From IMG/VR virus record IMGVR_UViG_3300022822_000076, positions 1 to 26,982 of that record: DNA of 26,982 nucleotides. One strand, written 5' to 3'. Shown piece after piece: positions 1,831 to 26,911 of this stretch. Position numbers and translations under genes: made by a program. The notes beneath the pieces were generated by a model that saw only the letters and a program-made list of their open reading frames with translations, was not told the origin of the DNA and ran no database searches. Within the stretch, counting starts at the first letter, position 1, and every line of letters starts with the position of its first letter. Source of the stretch: a virus.

Positions 1831-1842
1831 TTATAAATATCA
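1831..1842 (-). promoter_or_regulatory. TATTTAT late-type motif, site 2
   Basis: The coding strand reads TGATATTTATAA. Its first three bases are the TGA stop of the collagen-like gene. The fibre start at 1793 is 37 bases downstream. Confidence 0.6.
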
Positions 1843-2274
1843 ACTGCCGAAGAAAAGATCACCGGACCCTGAAAAGAATATACCTCCTCGGGTAGCGGTT
1901 GGGGTTGTAACGTTCTCTTTTAGTAGTACTACTCCTTTGTAGTTGATTGAGAAGATATCTACTGATGCTGATGTAAGTGTGAATATATCCTCTGTTAGGT
2001 GTACGGAGGCGGATACGCTTCCGGTTACTATAAAGTCAGCGGGTGCTCCTAGGGGTCCTGGTATTCCTTGAATTCCCGGTACTCCTTGAGGGCCTGGTGA
2101 TGTGACTTGTACGACCTTAGTGACAGGTAATGTTATTTCAATCTCCGGAGGGCAGTTGTTATCGACAATGTTTACCGTGTTATGAATAGTCTCTACTGTT
2201 ACTTCATTTTGAACAGTCTCTACCATTACAGTATTCGGAATTAAATCAATCGTTATTTCCGTAGGTTCGGACAT
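1840..2274 (-). CDS. Collagen-like tail or fibre protein
   Basis: A 144-residue protein. Residues 1-50 hold a Val/Thr/Asn-rich repeat in which VET-x2-N-x-V occurs twice, followed by IEIT-x-PVTKV. Next come about six Gly-X-Y triplets (GPQGVPGIQGIPGPLGAP, about residues 60-77), a collagen-like triple-helix stretch typical of trimeric phage fibres. The C-terminal part (FIVTGSVSASVHL ... GGIFFSGSGDLFFGS) looks beta-rich. The N-terminal 50 residues are paralogous to the short upstream gene at 2253-2447, which overlaps this gene by 22 bases. It lies between a probable tail protein and the fibre, so an appendage role is likely but not proven. Confidence 0.75.
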   Translation of the reverse strand: MSEPTEITIDLIPNTVMVETVQNEVTVETIHNTVNIVDNNCPPEIEITLPVTKVVQVTSPGPQGVPGIQGIPGPLGAPADFIVTGSVSASVHLTEDIFTLTSASVDIFSINYKGVVLLKENVTTPTATRGGIFFSGSGDLFFGS

Positions 2275-2455
2275 GTACTAGTCAGTTGTCTGTTTGAGGA
2301 TAGTATATGTATAACTTTAGTAACCGGTTGAGTAATCTCAATTTGAGATGAACATTTATTACTAATAACAAGTACAGTATTTTGAGCAGTCTCTACCAAT
2401 ACATCTTTGATGTTTATATCAACCGTTATTTGAACTGGTCCAGACATCTATTAAT
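2110..2455 (-). repeat. Diverged tandem duplication (offset about 173 bp)
   Basis: The end of the gene at 2451-2855 plus the start of the gene at 2253-2447 recurs 173 bases further along. CAGTTGTCTGTTT sits at 2456-2468 and 2283-2295, and CAGTCTCTACC at 2387 and 2214 (plus strand). The start codons also align. The second copy has an extra 27-base unit (VET-x2-N-x-V repeat) and a 2-base indel near its junction. The boundaries are approximate. Confidence 0.65.
2253..2447 (-). CDS. Short paralogue of the collagen-like protein, probably a decayed duplicate
   Basis: A 64-residue protein whose first 50 residues follow the N-terminus of the collagen-like neighbour: MS-x-P-x2-IT-x-D, VET-x-QN-x-V, then IEIT-x-PVTKV. 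After that it ends in an unrelated tail (SSNRQLTSTCPNLRK). That tail is a frame-shifted reading of the DNA that encodes the KQTTD C-terminus of the gene at 2451-2855, carried along by the tandem duplication. It has lost the Gly-X-Y repeats and the C-terminal domain. It starts 4 bases after the previous stop and overlaps the next gene by 22 bases, so it may still be translated, or serve only to couple translation. It may be a pseudogene. Confidence 0.5.
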   Translation of the reverse strand: MSGPVQITVDINIKDVLVETAQNTVLVISNKCSSQIEITQPVTKVIHILSSNRQLTSTCPNLRK

Positions 2456-2855
2456 CAGTTGTCTGTTTAGATAATCTTACTCTACCTTCTAATACCCTTG
2501 TTCTTAAAGCTCCAGATGTTATCTCTAGGTCATAGTATGCTTCGCCTGAAAAGTTTAAACTACTGGCTAGCTCATAACCTATATAAATACCTATACTGCC
2601 GCTTGTTGTCGGGTTACTTAAACTACTTCCAGAGAAACTTAAAAATGCATTGTCTGCTTTTTTGACGTAAGTATCGTTAAGACTTGATGTTAATGTTACA
2701 TAGGTTTCTCCCGAACCTGAGTATAGTGAACGTATTTCCATTTTACCGGTATGTCCGGTAAGGTCAATCGGGATAGAGCCCGAACCTTTATACTGTAATT
2801 CAAAATCTACAGTAGTCCCTTGTTCTAGTGTAAAAGAATATCTCCCTGCCGCCAT
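2451..2855 (-). CDS. Tail or baseplate-type structural protein
   Basis: A 134-residue predicted all-beta protein. It begins MAAGRYSFTLEQGTTVDF, continues with IDLTGHTGKMEIRSLY, and ends with YYDLEITSG and VLEGRVRLSKQ. This layout resembles the N-terminal domains of BppU-like upper baseplate or fibre-attachment proteins that are common in phages. That likeness comes from my recognition of the pattern, not from a search. No catalytic residues or transmembrane segments are seen. A TATTTAT motif sits 10 bases before the ATG, so this gene probably heads the unit that includes both collagen-like genes. The first possible start is used. Confidence 0.65.
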   Translation of the reverse strand: MAAGRYSFTLEQGTTVDFELQYKGSGSIPIDLTGHTGKMEIRSLYSGSGETYVTLTSSLNDTYVKKADNAFLSFSGSSLSNPTTSGSIGIYIGYELASSLNFSGEAYYDLEITSGALRTRVLEGRVRLSKQTTD

Positions 2856-2865
2856 CTTTATTTAG

Positions 2866-2877
2866 TTATAAATATCA
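2866..2877 (-). promoter_or_regulatory. TATTTAT late-type motif, site 3
   Basis: The coding strand reads TGATATTTATAA, 10 bases before the ATG at 2855. It is identical over 12 bases to the sites at 1831-1842 and 11416-11427. Confidence 0.6.
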
Positions 2878-3229: not shown

Positions 3230-3925
3230 CTAGTCTCTATAGTCAGCAAAGACATCTAAGATAGGGTCTACTATTTCGTGTCTATGGTTCTGTAGTAAGT
3301 GAGCTAGTTGAACTCCTTCTATATTCATTTCTAACCTTCCAAAGAAACCAAAACCAGACTCTTTCTTATTCCTAAGGTCACATTGTGATATATCTCCGCA
3401 GAAGATCATTTTTGAGTTTCTACCTAGACGTCCTATCATTAATTCCGTTTGTCTCATAGTGGCATTCTGTGCCTCATCAATGATCACGCAGCAGTTAGAG
3501 AAGGTATTACCTCTAAGGAATCCAAAGGGGGAGACAATGATTTTCCCTTGCGTTACTAATTTTTCTGTTTTCTCTTTTCCTATAAGGTCAAACATTATAC
3601 TGTACATTGGCGCTGTTAAGTAAGATAGCTTTTCATCCACTCCTCCTGGTAAGAATCCTAAATCTTCACCCGCTGTTACATATGGTCGAGCTATAATTAG
3701 TTTTTCTATCTGGCTGTTAAGTAGTAAATCAAGCCCTACTTGTATAGCGAGCATTGACTTACCGCTACCGGCTTTACCTTTTATCGCTGTTATTGGGTGT
3801 TGAAGTATTTGAGCTTTAATTTTTTTCTGCTCTTCGTTTAAGGTGATTCCAAACTTAATTGGACTTTTGAGTTTTCGCTTCTCTTTAAAAACCTCATCAG
3901 TATGGTGATTACTTGTTTGTGGCAT
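3230..3925 (-). CDS. phoH: PhoH-family ATPase
   Basis: From the ATG at 3925 the protein has 231 residues. Walker A is GKAGSGKS (residues 50-57) and Walker B is VIIDEA (147-152). The PhoH signatures ARPYVTAGEDLGFLPG (79-94), a FLRG motif and a late QNHRH motif are present, so the family call is firm. PhoH proteins are P-loop ATPases with helicase or RNA-metabolism links. Their role in phages, where they are a common marker gene, is unresolved. A longer frame starts at 3967, but a TATTTAT motif lies at 3936-3947, inside that extension and 10 bases before the 3925 ATG. The extra 14 residues are not PhoH-like, so I prefer 3925. The gene follows the terminator behind the capsid gene and so needs its own promoter. 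Confidence 0.9.
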   Translation of the reverse strand: MPQTSNHHTDEVFKEKRKLKSPIKFGITLNEEQKKIKAQILQHPITAIKGKAGSGKSMLAIQVGLDLLLNSQIEKLIIARPYVTAGEDLGFLPGGVDEKLSYLTAPMYSIMFDLIGKEKTEKLVTQGKIIVSPFGFLRGNTFSNCCVIIDEAQNATMRQTELMIGRLGRNSKMIFCGDISQCDLRNKKESGFGFFGRLEMNIEGVQLAHLLQNHRHEIVDPILDVFADYRD

Positions 3926-3935
3926 AATAACTTTC

Positions 3936-3947
3936 TTATAAATAGTT
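3936..3947 (-). promoter_or_regulatory. TATTTAT late-type motif, site 4
   Basis: The coding strand reads AACTATTTATAA, 10 bases before the preferred phoH start. It lies just after the capsid-gene terminator, where a new promoter is expected. Confidence 0.6.
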
Positions 3948-3981
3948 AAACTAAGTGAGAAGTACAAGCTCTCTAAAAAGA

Positions 3982-4034: not shown

Positions 4035-5693
4035 TTACAGTGTGTTTAGACCGCTTACATAGATCTTACCAAAGTACTCTGGACGAACCATTTTCTTAGC
4101 ATATCTAGTAAGTAGACCTTTTCTCGGTACGAAAGTATCTGGATCGTATACTAATGGAGTCATTATTAGAGGGATATATGGGGCAAATACTGCTCCAGTC
4201 TCTAGGAACTGACTACCTTTGAATCCCATTAAGATGGTATTCTCTTTCATATATGGGTTCTTGTAAACAGTGTATCTACTGTTAATTTGACCCATCTTCT
4301 GGACACCGAATGCATAAGAACCTTTACTTACATCTCCGTCAGAGTTTGTAGCAAATCCTGGTATGCTTTCTAGTATTGTAGCTACTGTTGGAGAAACTAC
4401 ACAGAAGTTGGCACCGCCTCTTAATGTTCTTTGGTGAATAATGTTAGATAGTTTTTGCATCTTAGTTCCAAGAGTTTGGAACCATGCACCTTGGCTGTTG
4501 TAGAAACCTCCAGCGTTAACACCTGCAGCATCAAACCCAGTATTACCTGCATTGATGAAGTTGTTGTTAGCAGCAGACCAGTACTCAGTACCAGCAGCAG
4601 CGGAAGTTATTAGCATATCAAGTATCTCTAAGTCAATCTCTAATGAAATATACTCAGACATTACACTTGTTAATTCAGCCTCTGCATCGAGAGAGTGATA
4701 AGCGTTAAGGTCTTGAGCAAATTCAGGAGTCCATTGTGCTTTTAACTTTTTAGTCTTAGCAATGATTCCTTCAGATCTCATAGACACGTTGATTTGTGGT
4801 ATTACAATCTCAGTTTCAGATTCTGCGTTAGGTACGGCAGAAGCAGCTCCAGCTTCGAAATCGCCTCTTGAGTTGGCAGCAGTTTGCTTATTGTAGAATA
4901 CAGTAGCATTGTTTAACGTATTAACGTCAGCGTCTGTACCAGTTACTAGGAATTCAATTCCAGTACCGTTAATCTTAGTGAATTCTGAAAGAACGTCAGC
5001 GTCAGTAATTGCGTCGAAGTTAATCATGAATCCTCTTATAGCTTCTATATCGTATGCTGGAAGTGCAGTTGCAACATTAGCAAGAGTTATTTTCTTAACA
5101 GATGTTACTGCAGGATCAAGAACACCAGCTGCAACAGATGCAGAATAGTCGCTATTGAAGTTTACATCGGCAAATGAAGCAGATGCAGCAGTTACAGTAA
5201 GACCAGCAGAAGACGTTTGATTAGTTGCGTAAGTAAATCTACCTGCTCCATAAAGACCTCCTGTAGAAGTGTTACCGAAGTTTGCAGAAGTATCTCCGTA
5301 AGTAGAGTCTCCAGAAGTGAATGGGTTTTTAGAAGTTCCGTATTGGAAGTCTAAGAAGAATACTAATCCAGAAGGTAAGTTCATAGGTTGAACAGAAACA
5401 AATTCCTTTGCTGCTATTTGACCGAATACTTTTCTTACCAATGGAAGAGCTACTCCGGCCCATTGCTCACCAGAACCAGCAGTAAAGCTAGCTCCAGTTC
5501 CTGTAGAAGATTGCTCTACTACTAGTTGCTTTGCTTGATTTTCGAGGATCATAGACATGTTATTCTTGTCTATATCGTCTGACATTCCTTCTAGAAGGCC
5601 TGTCTTTTCCCATTTTCCTGCTAATCTAACAGCGTCAGATTGCAGACTGTGCCATGGATTGGCAGATTCTAATAATTGTTGTACAGTTGACAT
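4035..5693 (-). CDS. gp23: Major capsid protein (T4 gp23-like)
   Basis: A 552-residue protein, close to the T4 gp23 length. The N-terminus (LLESANPWHSLQSD ... LAGKWEKTGLLEG) and the central NISMRSEGIIAKTKKLKAQW-type segment (here INVSMRSEGIIAKTKKLKA, with WTPEFAQDL after it) are gp23 hallmarks. So are EYISLEIDLEILDML and the C-terminal VRPEYFGKIYVSGL. It forms the hexameric shell of the prolate or icosahedral head. In T4 the gp21 protease removes an N-terminal segment ending at Glu65; Glu60 (LVVE) or Glu51 (MILE) could be the equivalent here. It follows the scaffold gene by 20 bases. The leader is A-rich (AACAACAATAAAAA) with no Shine-Dalgarno sequence. A strong terminator follows. Confidence 0.97.
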   Translation of the reverse strand: MSTVQQLLESANPWHSLQSDAVRLAGKWEKTGLLEGMSDDIDKNNMSMILENQAKQLVVEQSSTGTGASFTAGSGEQWAGVALPLVRKVFGQIAAKEFVSVQPMNLPSGLVFFLDFQYGTSKNPFTSGDSTYGDTSANFGNTSTGGLYGAGRFTYATNQTSSAGLTVTAASASFADVNFNSDYSASVAAGVLDPAVTSVKKITLANVATALPAYDIEAIRGFMINFDAITDADVLSEFTKINGTGIEFLVTGTDADVNTLNNATVFYNKQTAANSRGDFEAGAASAVPNAESETEIVIPQINVSMRSEGIIAKTKKLKAQWTPEFAQDLNAYHSLDAEAELTSVMSEYISLEIDLEILDMLITSAAAGTEYWSAANNNFINAGNTGFDAAGVNAGGFYNSQGAWFQTLGTKMQKLSNIIHQRTLRGGANFCVVSPTVATILESIPGFATNSDGDVSKGSYAFGVQKMGQINSRYTVYKNPYMKENTILMGFKGSQFLETGAVFAPYIPLIMTPLVYDPDTFVPRKGLLTRYAKKMVRPEYFGKIYVSGLNTL

Positions 5694-11415: not shown

Positions 11416-11427
11416 TTATAAATATCA
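11416..11427 (-). promoter_or_regulatory. TATTTAT late-type motif, site 7
   Basis: The coding strand reads TGATATTTATAA, 15 bases before the portal start and just after the terminase stop (11444). Confidence 0.6.
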
Positions 11428-11443
11428 GAAAAAGCTACTTATA

Positions 11444-14428
11444 TCATTTATAGATCCAAGACATGTCTTCGAACCCTCCTTTACCGTTGTCTATCTGTGT
11501 AGGGTTGTTGGCGCTTTGAGGAGTATAGATTATGTCTGGGTTATTATTAGTGGTAGTAATGTTCTCCCATACACTTCTTACGATGTTAGCGTTTCCAGTC
11601 TGTATTCTAAAGGCTGATTCTCTTACATACATCGCTATTGCCCAAGACATTGTTAAATCATCGTTATAACCTCCTTGAGCTTCTGCTCTATTGTTTCTCC
11701 ATATAAAGACTTTTAGTTCATCAAGCATTCTCTTTGAATGTATTATCGCTGACTTGTCATTAATAGATTCTTGTAGTTTTGCTATTATAAGAGGCCTTGT
11801 CTTTAACGTGTTGGAAAAGCCTGGGGTCATATTAGTATTTAGCCCGTGGGGGTCGAAGTAACTTTCTGAGGTAACATTACCAGACTTTGGAGAATGGTAT
11901 AGATTAGTATAACCTCGTTCTTGTACTGTTTCGATAGTAGACCATCCTATGTTTGCATTCTCTACTACTAACAGTGCGTTGTTATACTCTGTCGATATTC
12001 CGACTAATAGGTGGGCAAACTCTTTAGGGGGGAGTTGTCCTTTGTATTCTCCAACCTGGCTACACGTTTCTATATCTATTATATGAAAAGCGGAGAAATC
12101 CTTTCCGTCTCCTCGAGCTACGTCTGCTACTACCATGTAGTTTCTGGAATAGTCTACAGGTTCCCATATCCACAGGTTTCTATCCACCCCTCTTCTCTCT
12201 ACAGGATCTTTTCTATAGGTCTCTTCATAAAATTCTATAAGGTCGCCGTATATTACCGTATCTCCAGAGGTAGAGAATGTAACATCACACTCCTGTGCTG
12301 CTAACCTTGGATCTCCTAATTGAGCATCTTGTGAATCTCTCCAGGTTTGGTCTCTTTCCGGGTGTACGAACCACGGTAACTTGATAGGTAAGAATGCATT
12401 TTCTCCTGTCTCCGCTGCACACCAGGTCTTATGGAACCAATTACCTGTACCGAAAGGGGTTTGGTGTCCTACCATACCGTTGTATATTACAGAATGACAC
12501 CATTCCCCTTCTGTTTTAATGTTATCCGGTAGAGAAAAGTCATACGTCTCAGAAACCCCTTCTGTGATCTCCTTAATAATGTTCCACCGTATTCTATCAT
12601 CTAGTATATTGTCCCAGTGAGTTAGCTCCTCCTCGTTTAATAAATGTTTCCATTTACTAAAAACGACCTTTACGGTTGCCCTTGAACAATGAATAGTTTT
12701 CCTACTCCTAGTTTTATTTAAGATGTTGCTAAGTGACTTCTCAGATTCCTTTATAAAACTGTACTGTGAGAGTTCTGAGCGGTCATATAGCAATTTTATG
12801 AGGTTATCTCCTGCCGGTATTAAGTCTAAGGTGGATTTCCTAGTTTGTTTTTTATAGTTATGTACTGATGTCTTTAAATTTAATTGCTTCCTGTCTATGC
12901 GGAATCCAATGTGCTTATGAAAAATCTCTAAACCTTCACCGGTTATCTCTAAAATATAACAGTCGTGTTTATGTTTATTCCATTCGAAGGCCCATTCACA
13001 ACCCTGCTCTCGTTTTGAAGCGACATATGCGTTACTATGCAGTGCTGTCCTCACATAGACTCTACTATATACTCCGAAGTTTAAGAGTATGCTACGTAAA
13101 CCCTCCACTAGGTCTTTAGAGATACTTGCATAAGTCACTAATCCTTTTACAGTAGCACACCCGTCCCCGTCAAACATTCCTTGAACCACGGCAGCTATAT
13201 TCTTCTCCGACATCGAAAGTATCTTCTTAGGAAGGAACTTAGTTAGCGCTGTATGTTCGCCTAGTTCAAAACCTACTTTATTAAAAATATCCACTAAAGA
13301 GGTAGAACAGAGCCTTTTAGCCAATCTCCCATCGGTTCTGCTGTAATATAGGTCTAACTTATTAAGTTCTCTATCTATATCTTGATCATCCCCGCAGGTG
13401 ATGTCTATTGTAGTTGTTCCGTTAGAACTGCCCTCTGCTAGGTAGAGGCCGAAAAGGTAACTAAGGTCCGGGGTGATTTCCTCTGTGTTGAAGTTTAATT
13501 TTTTTCTATTCTTAGCAATATTTTGGTAGTTTAGAGTATCGTTATTTCCCCAAATACGGTGCCCCCCCTGCACTGCTACAAAGTCTCCTACCTTCAGGGT
13601 CTCTAGTTTATTCCACCCGTAGGTATTACCGGAGAAGGTGTATAGTTTATGGTTTTCTGAACCTTCTAGTTGTGCATTTTTAGAATGTATCTTCAAGGTG
13701 GGGACAGTGCCGTTTCGGTAGAATTGATGCCCTTCTCTAATTTTACCTTTTCCTAGTATGTGGTAAGGTTTAACTGTATTAAAGCCGGGTTCTTGCTTCT
13801 CCGTTATAAAATCCTTTACCTGCTTAATGCCTTCAGAGGTAGTTACATAAGTATCTCCTACTACACATGACAATACTATAGCTCCTCCACCTGTTGCAAG
13901 TGTCTGTTGAGCAGACGCCCATGTTTCAGCTATATTATCTATAAATGCTGCCTCGTCAATTATCAGTAACGATACTGCTTCCGATCTAGCGGCGTCTGCG
14001 TTAGAGGATTTAGCTGTTATCTTAGATCCGTTAACTAGTCTTAAACTTAACTTATTCTTCTCTGCGGACCCTACTCGTAACCAGGTAGGTAGATTCTCGT
14101 ACATAAACTGTACTTTAGTTACAAGGTTTCTAGCAGTAGCTTGTGTTGTTGCTAATGTAAGTATATTCTTATCTTTATGAAAAGTCATTAACCATAGTGA
14201 AAACCCTGCTGCTAGAGTTGATATTCCGAGCTGTCTTGACTTTAGTATTATAGAGTAGTCATTATCTTGGAAGTGGTTTAATGTAGTTTCTTGGAAGGGA
14301 AATAAGTGAAATAGTATTCTACCTCTTTGAGGGTGTTGTATATAGCAGTACTTTTTCATGAAATGTACTGGGTCTTTAGCACATTTTACGTATTCCTGTC
14401 TTATTACTTGTTTTAGTTCTTGACTCAT
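11444..14428 (-). CDS. terL: Terminase large subunit (T4 gp17-like) with an intein
   Basis: The 994-residue precursor consists of 525 residues of terminase interrupted by a 469-residue intein (residues 188-656). The ATPase half has a P-loop of the form KSRQLGIST (63-71), in which the usual Lys before Ser/Thr is replaced by Ile and a Lys precedes the SRQ. Walker B is LLIIDEA (154-160). Motif III (TPFGTGNWF) follows the intein directly. The C-terminal RNase H-like nuclease has Asp769 (VADVARGDGKD), Glu823 (VVENANIG) and Asp923/Asp924 (GGYNDDL), so it appears intact. The enzyme cuts concatemeric DNA and pumps it through the portal encoded just downstream. Splicing is needed to rebuild the ATPase site. 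The start has an A-rich leader with no TATTTAT motif. Confidence 0.96.
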   Translation of the reverse strand: MSQELKQVIRQEYVKCAKDPVHFMKKYCYIQHPQRGRILFHLFPFQETTLNHFQDNDYSIILKSRQLGISTLAAGFSLWLMTFHKDKNILTLATTQATARNLVTKVQFMYENLPTWLRVGSAEKNKLSLRLVNGSKITAKSSNADAARSEAVSLLIIDEAAFIDNIAETWASAQQTLATGGGAIVLSCVVGDTYVTTSEGIKQVKDFITEKQEPGFNTVKPYHILGKGKIREGHQFYRNGTVPTLKIHSKNAQLEGSENHKLYTFSGNTYGWNKLETLKVGDFVAVQGGHRIWGNNDTLNYQNIAKNRKKLNFNTEEITPDLSYLFGLYLAEGSSNGTTTIDITCGDDQDIDRELNKLDLYYSRTDGRLAKRLCSTSLVDIFNKVGFELGEHTALTKFLPKKILSMSEKNIAAVVQGMFDGDGCATVKGLVTYASISKDLVEGLRSILLNFGVYSRVYVRTALHSNAYVASKREQGCEWAFEWNKHKHDCYILEITGEGLEIFHKHIGFRIDRKQLNLKTSVHNYKKQTRKSTLDLIPAGDNLIKLLYDRSELSQYSFIKESEKSLSNILNKTRSRKTIHCSRATVKVVFSKWKHLLNEEELTHWDNILDDRIRWNIIKEITEGVSETYDFSLPDNIKTEGEWCHSVIYNGMVGHQTPFGTGNWFHKTWCAAETGENAFLPIKLPWFVHPERDQTWRDSQDAQLGDPRLAAQECDVTFSTSGDTVIYGDLIEFYEETYRKDPVERRGVDRNLWIWEPVDYSRNYMVVADVARGDGKDFSAFHIIDIETCSQVGEYKGQLPPKEFAHLLVGISTEYNNALLVVENANIGWSTIETVQERGYTNLYHSPKSGNVTSESYFDPHGLNTNMTPGFSNTLKTRPLIIAKLQESINDKSAIIHSKRMLDELKVFIWRNNRAEAQGGYNDDLTMSWAIAMYVRESAFRIQTGNANIVRSVWENITTTNNNPDIIYTPQSANNPTQIDNGKGGFEDMSWIYK
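12461..13867 (-). mobile_element. LAGLIDADG-type intein in the terminase
   Basis: An in-frame insert of 469 codons, precursor residues 188-656. Block A is CVVGDTYVTT with Cys1; block B is GSENHK (256-261). Two LAGLIDADG motifs, LFGLYLAEG (325-333, acidic Glu332) and VVQGMFDGDG (414-423, acidic Asp422), mark a homing endonuclease that looks intact. Block F is near TYDFSLPD (628-635), and block G is VIYNGMVGHQ ending at Gln656, followed by Thr657 as first C-extein residue. The terminal Gln in place of the usual Asn is a known minority variant. Joining Ser187 to Thr657 gives an uninterrupted ATPase motif III (LSTPFGTG), which fixes both borders. Confidence 0.95.
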
Positions 14429-16110: not shown

Positions 16111-16122
16111 TTATAAATAGTC
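16111..16122 (-). promoter_or_regulatory. TATTTAT late-type motif, site 8
   Basis: The coding strand reads GACTATTTATAA, wedged between the stop of the upstream gene (16123) and the ATG at 16108, only two bases away. It would give a leaderless mRNA if it is a -10 element. Confidence 0.55.
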
Positions 16123-17764: not shown

Positions 17765-17776
17765 TTATAAATATGC
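17765..17776 (-). promoter_or_regulatory. TATTTAT late-type motif, site 9
   Basis: The coding strand reads GCATATTTATAA, between the stop of the 1108-residue gene (17786) and the ATG at 17745, 19 bases away. Confidence 0.55.
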
Positions 17777-22083: not shown

Positions 22084-22095
22084 GTATAAATATCA
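22084..22095 (-). promoter_or_regulatory. TATTTAT late-type motif, site 10
   Basis: The coding strand reads TGATATTTATAC. The first three bases are the TGA stop of the upstream nuclease gene. The ATG at 22080 is three bases downstream. Confidence 0.55.
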
Positions 22096-23834: not shown

Positions 23835-24278
23835 TCAGGTCTCCAAGTCTTTTCTAAAAAATTTAGCTAGTATATTTTCATTGTATGAATCTTTTAAGAG
23901 CACTTCGTATACACATTGATAATGTAACTCGTAGTAAGTTAATTGTTTTTTTGAGAAAGTCAACTGCAATACTTCTCTTTCAAAATTTTCTTTTCCTAAT
24001 TGAGCAATTTCTTCTAGCAGAGGTTTATTGGATCCCCAATAGTTTAACCAGTTAGACTCTTTTAAGACTTTCTTTTTTGTTGGTTTACGTCCAGGCCCGG
24101 TCTGTTCAGACAGTTCTCTCTTTGTAAGTTTCTTAGTTAATGTATTTTGTAAGATTTTCCTACCTATATAGAATTTACCGTCTGTTAGGTTTGTTATCTT
24201 ATAGACGAAACCGTGGCAGGTGTCTGGGAATTGTTCTATAGAGGTGATATCCTCATTCTTATATAACCATTTTAACAT
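23835..24278 (-). CDS. GIY-YIG endonuclease-like protein
   Basis: A 147-residue protein. Residues 23-41 (GFVYKITNLTDGKFYIGRK) match the GIY-YIG core, with GFVY for GIY and an exact YIG. A basic loop (residues 48-75) follows, then ESNWLNYWGS (74-83) and a late Glu117 (YYELHYQ), which would be the metal-binding Glu of the fold. Similar free-standing genes are common in T4-like phages, including Seg-type homing endonucleases. I see no separate DNA-binding domain of the Seg type. It could be a homing enzyme, a DNA-degrading enzyme or a repair nuclease. It lies between a virion gene and the primase, 24 bases before the latter. Confidence 0.82.
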   Translation of the reverse strand: MLKWLYKNEDITSIEQFPDTCHGFVYKITNLTDGKFYIGRKILQNTLTKKLTKRELSEQTGPGRKPTKKKVLKESNWLNYWGSNKPLLEEIAQLGKENFEREVLQLTFSKKQLTYYELHYQCVYEVLLKDSYNENILAKFFRKDLET

Positions 24279-26899: not shown

Positions 26900-26911
26900 T
26901 TATAAATATAT
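26900..26911 (-). promoter_or_regulatory. TATTTAT late-type motif, site 11
   Basis: The coding strand reads ATATATTTATAA, 16 bases before the ATG at 26883 and after the stop at 26935. Confidence 0.55.

Follow-up and report, generated by a model that had tools for sequence, protein, structure and literature searches.

Three adjacent genes of a T4-like phage, here termed A, B and C, form what appears to be a tail-fibre cassette caught after unequal recombination. They lie in the window, i.e. the whole stretch of 26,982 bases that was analysed (one virus record). In the proposed mechanism, the product of A, which resembles LtfC/p132, should hold fibres, the short beta-strand repeats of C should dock on A, and the Gly-X-Y stretch of C should form a trimer. 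B would stem from a second, diverged fibre allele, of which it retains the docking part: its gene would have been cut just before the Gly-X-Y stretch and fused to the 3'-terminal codons of another A gene in front of C, presumably by exchange between two phage alleles, leaving B as a remnant that might at most pass ribosomes on to C. We give unequal recombination of two A-fibre cassettes that had diverged about an even chance and prefer it over plain tandem duplication. An earlier, sequence-only reading of this DNA did not cover what A is or how variable the locus is as a whole.

Gene order and features of the cassette

Genes A, B and C are all located on the minus strand, as is a T4-type terminase, and the order past PhoH is an 85-aa ORF, A, B and C. 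The features, in window positions, are as follows.

4035-5693, minus strand: Gp23 major capsid gene
3230-3967, minus strand: PhoH gene
2867-2874, minus strand: candidate promoter of A-B-C, TATTTATA on the gene strand, 12 nt 5' of the A ATG (motif only)
2451-2855, minus strand: gene A, 134 aa, Ig-fold, phrog_1084 (function unknown); from AlphaFold2, structure and profile matches, and PHROG
2379-2468, minus strand: repeat copy 1 of family D1 (A-tail and start of B)
2295-2310, minus strand: junction at which the B anchor module ceases to match C and the A-tail copy starts (exact base not resolved)
2278-2295, minus strand: copy of the last five codons and stop of A (KQTTD-stop in the frame of A, out of frame in B)
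2253-2447, minus strand: ORF B, 64 aa, fibre N-terminal anchor module only, no Gly-X-Y; from the module profile and alignment
2206-2295, minus strand: repeat copy 2 of family D1 (A-tail copy and start of C)
2179-2205, minus strand: extra 9-residue (27-nt) anchor repeat of C (D2, one base offset), absent from B and L007
2047-2094, minus strand: Gly-X-Y stretch of C, residues 61-76; weak Pfam Collagen match under the cut-off
1840-2274, minus strand: gene C, 144 aa, complete short fibre-like protein, with anchor repeats, Gly-X-Y and a C-terminal domain

The repeat and its junction

The sequence-only reading had described a duplication of the end of A together with the start of a fibre gene at an offset of 173 bases. 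This duplication was recovered as repeat D1 (2206-2295 versus 2379-2468; 90 nt, 76% identity, spacing 173), whose gapped local alignment score of 75 is far above the best of 2000 dinucleotide shuffles (29). The extent assigned to it holds only in part: the duplication is real, but its strong part covers just ~90-95 nt; in the last 25 module codons, B and C agree at only 44/75 bases (59%). The 2-base indel of that reading does appear in the alignment just 5' of the copied A-tail, at the junction, so that it may be the junction itself and not an indel.

The 3' end of A reads AAA CAG ACA ACT GAT TAA (2468-2451), followed by TAG and the ATG of B at 2447, and its copy reads AAA CAG ACA ACT GAC TAG (2295-2278), followed by TAC and the ATG of C at 2274. 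The 2 differences in 18 bases (GAT/GAC and TAA/TAG) are both synonymous in the frame of A, and each copy keeps a 3-nt spacer before the next ATG, as if the copied tail came from a working A gene; the copy may have been kept as the leader of C. The same 18 bases in related phages match those of the window A at 15/18 positions in L003 and L008 and at 12/18 in L007.

ORF B is a truncated anchor and gene C a complete fibre-like gene

ORF B consists of the anchor module (MSGPVQITVDINIKDVLVETAQNTVLVISNKCSSQIEITQPVTKVIHI), which is followed 8 bases on by AAACAGACAACTGACTAG, the copy of the end of A in another frame. The copied tail is translated one base off the frame of A (...SSNRQLTSTCPNLRK), in agreement with the frame-shifted reading of the KQTTD region described earlier. 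The terminus of B is ...VIHILSSNRQLTSTCPNLRK; its 3' end lies inside C, with a B/C overlap of 22 nt, and neither Gly-X-Y nor another trimer-former or distal domain is present. The anchor strands in B were recognised by the module profile at 31.1 bits (E 5.2e-8), and a second module profile scored B at 34.0 bits (E 7.1e-9), B being outside the training set in both cases. The module is of the same length as in L007, and the glycines that follow it are at least 90% conserved in a 27-row alignment in which B is the exception. These data support B as a truncated fibre N-terminus fused out of frame to a copy of the tail of A.

The most likely status of B is that of a remnant, an ORF that would let ribosomes reach the start of C. 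Frameshifting from B into C is unlikely from the sequence because a TAG in the frame of C lies two codons before the C ATG. PHROG and Pfam returned no match for B, and neither B nor C had a tblastn match in the phage collection (E 1 and 0.1). Searches of viral contigs, which may omit records near the window, gave 15 pattern-matching stretches for B alone, none of them confirmed, and no match for the B-type codon pattern; the viral contig searches also found no contig with a full-length fibre carrying the module of B. The duplicated-junction pattern was absent from the viral collection searched, to which records near the window possibly do not belong.

Gene C starts with anchor repeats of nine residues each (NTVMVETVQ / NEVTVETIH / NTVNIVDNN), one unit more than in B, and its module, outside the training set, scored 45.0 bits (E 2.5e-12). 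It continues with GPQGVPGIQGIPGPLG and then with a C-terminal domain common to L003, L007 and L008. The additional repeat and the Gly-X-Y stretch ascribed to this copy were both found, the former as the extra 9-residue unit and the latter from residue 61 onward. Only five Gly-X-Y triplets are present, and the match to Pfam Collagen (PF01391), at 14 bits, lies under the curated cut-off of 27.2; PHROG and Pfam gave nothing further. The structure model of C (pLDDT 51) was too poor for use. A ribosomal S11 match of the C profile (E 0.1 or worse) was taken as chance, and L005 and L006 were dropped as relatives of C, their similarity being confined to Gly-X-Y and its surroundings.

Gene A is related to the fibre-attachment proteins of T5 and DT57C

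Gene A is related to the fibre-attachment protein p132/LtfC of T5 and DT57C, as seen in both fold and sequence. Its AlphaFold2 model (pLDDT 90) has an Ig-like fold, with the compact single beta Ig-like domain of ~140 residues that characterises LtfC and p132. The structural matches of A were led by 8hqz_T of DT57C (Z 12.2, rmsd 2.0, 112 aligned) and 7qg9_L of T5 (Z 11.9, rmsd 2.2, 113 aligned), followed by 8zdo_a from the baseplate of phage Douge (Z 10.1), and matches to Ig-folds from outside phages started at Z 8.7. Sequence kinship was detected with a profile of 57 A proteins, which matched 8hqz_Q ('L-shaped tail fiber assembly', E 2.8e-5), 7qg9_R (p132, E 2e-4) and 26dk_M ('Structural protein', E 2.6e-4); A matched PHROG 3304 ('L-shaped tail fiber protein assembly') at E 0.022 only. 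The A family also matched antibody, receptor and toxin chains, which was put down to common folds or chance and disregarded.

In DT57C, LtfC is described as a ring of twelve to whose sheets two short strands from the N-termini of the fibre LtfA are added (PMC10713586), and T5 p132 is described as a dodecameric collar that was not seen in a fibreless strain (PMC11313276). Such strand docking would fit the pairing of A with a fibre gene whose product begins with short strands. LtfA, like the fibre here, carries short beta-strands at its N-terminus, ahead of the part that forms the trimer (PMC10713586). The present locus resembles LtfC-LtfA and p132-pb1 in the fold and detectable sequence kinship of A, but its neighbours are the gp23 and PhoH genes, its strand repeats vary in number, Gly-X-Y would take the place of a coiled coil as trimer-former, and the link between A and C is one of gene adjacency. 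This gives phrog_1084 a probable role, that of holding the fibres in many environmental phages of the T4-like type.

Among cultured phages, Acidovorax phage ACP17 possesses a relative of A (28-29% identity) that overlaps by 11 nt a 165-aa gene bearing a GFPGPRGLPGEPGS stretch, and seven records of Streptomyces phages had partial matches to A (E 1e-3 to 6e-3). The Flavobacterium immuto phages, the nearest by gp23 DNA (72.7%), were absent from the A match lists, and the A pattern gave 46 stretches in genome contigs, none of them confirmed.

The locus after A is highly variable among related phages

In the contigs examined first (L003, L007, L008, L009 and L010), A is directly followed by one fibre-like gene, and B is absent. 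Relatives with both genes full-length, which the sequence-only reading had named as counting against a duplication, were not seen among these five. L003 and L008 lack the first anchor repeats.

A wider search yielded 467 loci with a relative of A, and the best 80 of the 467 were kept. At 77/80 loci, an ORF of very variable length, mostly fibre-like (the longest of at least 35 codons near the end of A), starts from -7 to +16 nt relative to the last base of A, with a one-base overlap in 45 of these loci; in the remaining three (L042, L047 and L051), the sequence stops 30-40 nt past A. The length of this ORF ranges from 48 to 1274 aa among the 61 complete ones. Relatives of the window PhoH and Gp23 were found at 61/80 and 64/80 loci, respectively, and where more than 3 kb precedes A (n = 64), at 52 and 54.

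The N-termini encoded after A share a common pattern in most rows, in which short repeats with beta-strand-like spacing lead to a VVxV strand and a GPxG-like start (exceptions: L064, L068 and L071). A count of 79/81 loci with the module is mostly in-sample for the profile. The fibre N-termini of L018, L019, L023, L024, L025 and L077 contain many more strand repeats before GPxG than other rows, suggesting from the sequences that the number of strand repeats may change freely.

In L014, L056, L066, L069, L072, L081, L083 and L085, a second anchor-type gene follows the first fibre-like gene, forming tandem arrays. No A-tail copy was detected before the second module-type gene at any of 10 other loci tested (300 plain shuffles each; L057, near-identical to L056, was left out). 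Thus, tandem fibre genes recur in this sample, whereas the scar was seen in the window only. L068 and L071 harbor a 48-aa ORF within the first 146 nt after A, before the next fibre gene (65% aa identity, pS 0.48, pN 0.19). These ORFs had been in the training set of the first profile and were rejected as parallels to B, since a module profile built with six related loci left out did not find them.

In T4-like phages, fibres seem to be swapped at the locus that follows A. The fibre repertoire of the environmental members of this group could be read at the boundary after A, next to gp23 and PhoH, and the scar illustrates a possible route of allele change at this boundary. The recombination event itself is ordinary in kind; it is the spot that is worth knowing.

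Divergence of B and C and the origin of the junction

These results raise a further question: were two diverged fibre alleles joined, or did one fibre start double in place? All divergence figures rest on 48 codons and 18 bases. The modules of B and C share 65% DNA identity and 52% protein identity, with pS 0.66 and pN 0.26 over 48 codons; this silent divergence is about equal to that of gene A between phages (pS 0.59-0.63, window versus L003, L007 and L008). It is unevenly distributed: pS is 0.30 over the first 23 codons but 0.97 over the last 25, a contrast with a Fisher p of 5e-5 to 5e-4 for a split chosen after the alignment was seen; another gap placement in B raises the first-part pS to 0.47, making the contrast between the parts weaker. 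In the first 23 codons, pN (0.27) is close to pS (0.30), with no sign of constraint there.

The possibility that a segment of ~173 bp, comprising the A-tail and the fibre start, was doubled within one genome, after which B decayed and C gained a repeat, corresponds to the view of the sequence-only reading and is the strongest alternative, albeit a doubtful one in our estimation. In its favour, the repeat is in register, the motif VETxQN is common to B and C and was not seen in L007, and the near equality of pN and pS in the first 23 codons suits a decaying B. A 49-column protein tree likewise pairs B with C at 93/86 (not starred), B having the longer terminal branch (0.94 versus 0.53 for C); the alternative topologies (p-AU 0.31 and 0.36) were not rejected. 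Against a plain duplication, pS reaches 0.66 over the whole module and 0.97 in its second part, whereas the A-tail copy is identical at 16/18 positions, for which p is 0.0007 at a mismatch rate of 0.5, 0.02 at 0.35 and 0.09 at 0.275. Moreover, had B been neutral for half of the divergence, a pN of 0.52 would be expected over the 48 codons at the observed pS; the value seen was 0.26, so B is too well conserved for that scenario. For neutrality over 0.2 of the divergence, the expected pN is 0.35 (p 0.02), and if pS is ~0.5 to 0.56, neutrality for 0.2-0.3 of the divergence fits (p 0.12 to 0.89). The best local protein match of B, and also of C, is L012 (on the same contig as L007) and not each other. 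On balance, the data on B and C tend to favour a fairly recent joining of two diverged fibre alleles over the in-place decay of an old duplicate. Of the unequal exchange invoked by the sequence-only reading, the truncated copy joined to an A-tail copy stands and the mechanism is likely; the pS values and L012 matches speak against a plain tandem duplication, but the weak pairing in the tree leaves some probability for an old duplication in this lineage.

A working small protein, acting either as a free anchor that limits fibre number by occupying docking sites on A or as a device coupling translation from A to C, seems unlikely. Its intact ORF, the low pN relative to pS over the 48 codons (0.26 versus 0.66) and the overlap of its end with the start of C would all fit such a function, yet B lacks the start of Gly-X-Y with its conserved glycines, and the conservation may predate the cut. 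Nor did B have a relative in the viral contigs searched or the A-tail copy a counterpart in the 10 other loci tested, and the module profile fails to recognise the equivalently placed 48-aa ORFs of L068 and L071 once they are excluded from it. It is likewise improbable, and slightly more so, that B is retained as a working 'blank' anchor, a fibre base lacking its fibre that would occupy some docking sites on an LtfC-like ring and let a phage midway through a fibre change control how many of each it carries. An assembly artefact joining two co-occurring alleles would agree with the window being a single virus record and with the absence of the junction pattern from the contigs of the viral collection, which may lack records near the window, but it is very improbable given that the exact identity at the joint extends over 14 nt, less than the word length that assemblers usually use.

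Comparison with known fibre systems

Phage tail-fibre genes undergo modular exchange at conserved N-terminal or flanking boundaries. The present locus is similar in having a conserved A and anchor, a highly variable remainder and a scar at the boundary, but the scar differs in keeping two tandem anchors with a copy of the end of the upstream gene between them. Gly-X-Y in a fibre-like protein, as in C, is also known from collagen-like phage proteins (e.g. PMC3368898), although the few triplets of C stay under the Pfam Collagen cut-off. No description of this cassette was found in the titles and abstract openings among the literature matches listed, a search mostly outside subscription papers.

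Sequence motifs and mobile elements

The motif TATAAATA occurs 14 times in the window versus 4.4 expected. Six of the sites (2867-2874, 11417-11424, 16112-16119, 17766-17773, 22085-22092 and 26901-26908) are situated 4-21 nt 5' of minus-strand ORF starts and read TATTTATA on the gene strand, making a late promoter or start-site motif possible.

The large terminase gene (11444-14428, minus strand, 994 aa) contains a LAGLIDADG domain (residues 411-508) within the T4-type terminase, probably an intein with a homing endonuclease, and a segE-type GIY-YIG endonuclease gene is located at 23835-24278 (minus strand, E 1.3e-26). In L010 (1241-2968, plus strand), the PhoH gene is split near the P-loop (GSGKA...THNT) by a LAGLIDADG/homing-endonuclease element, which is probably also an intein.
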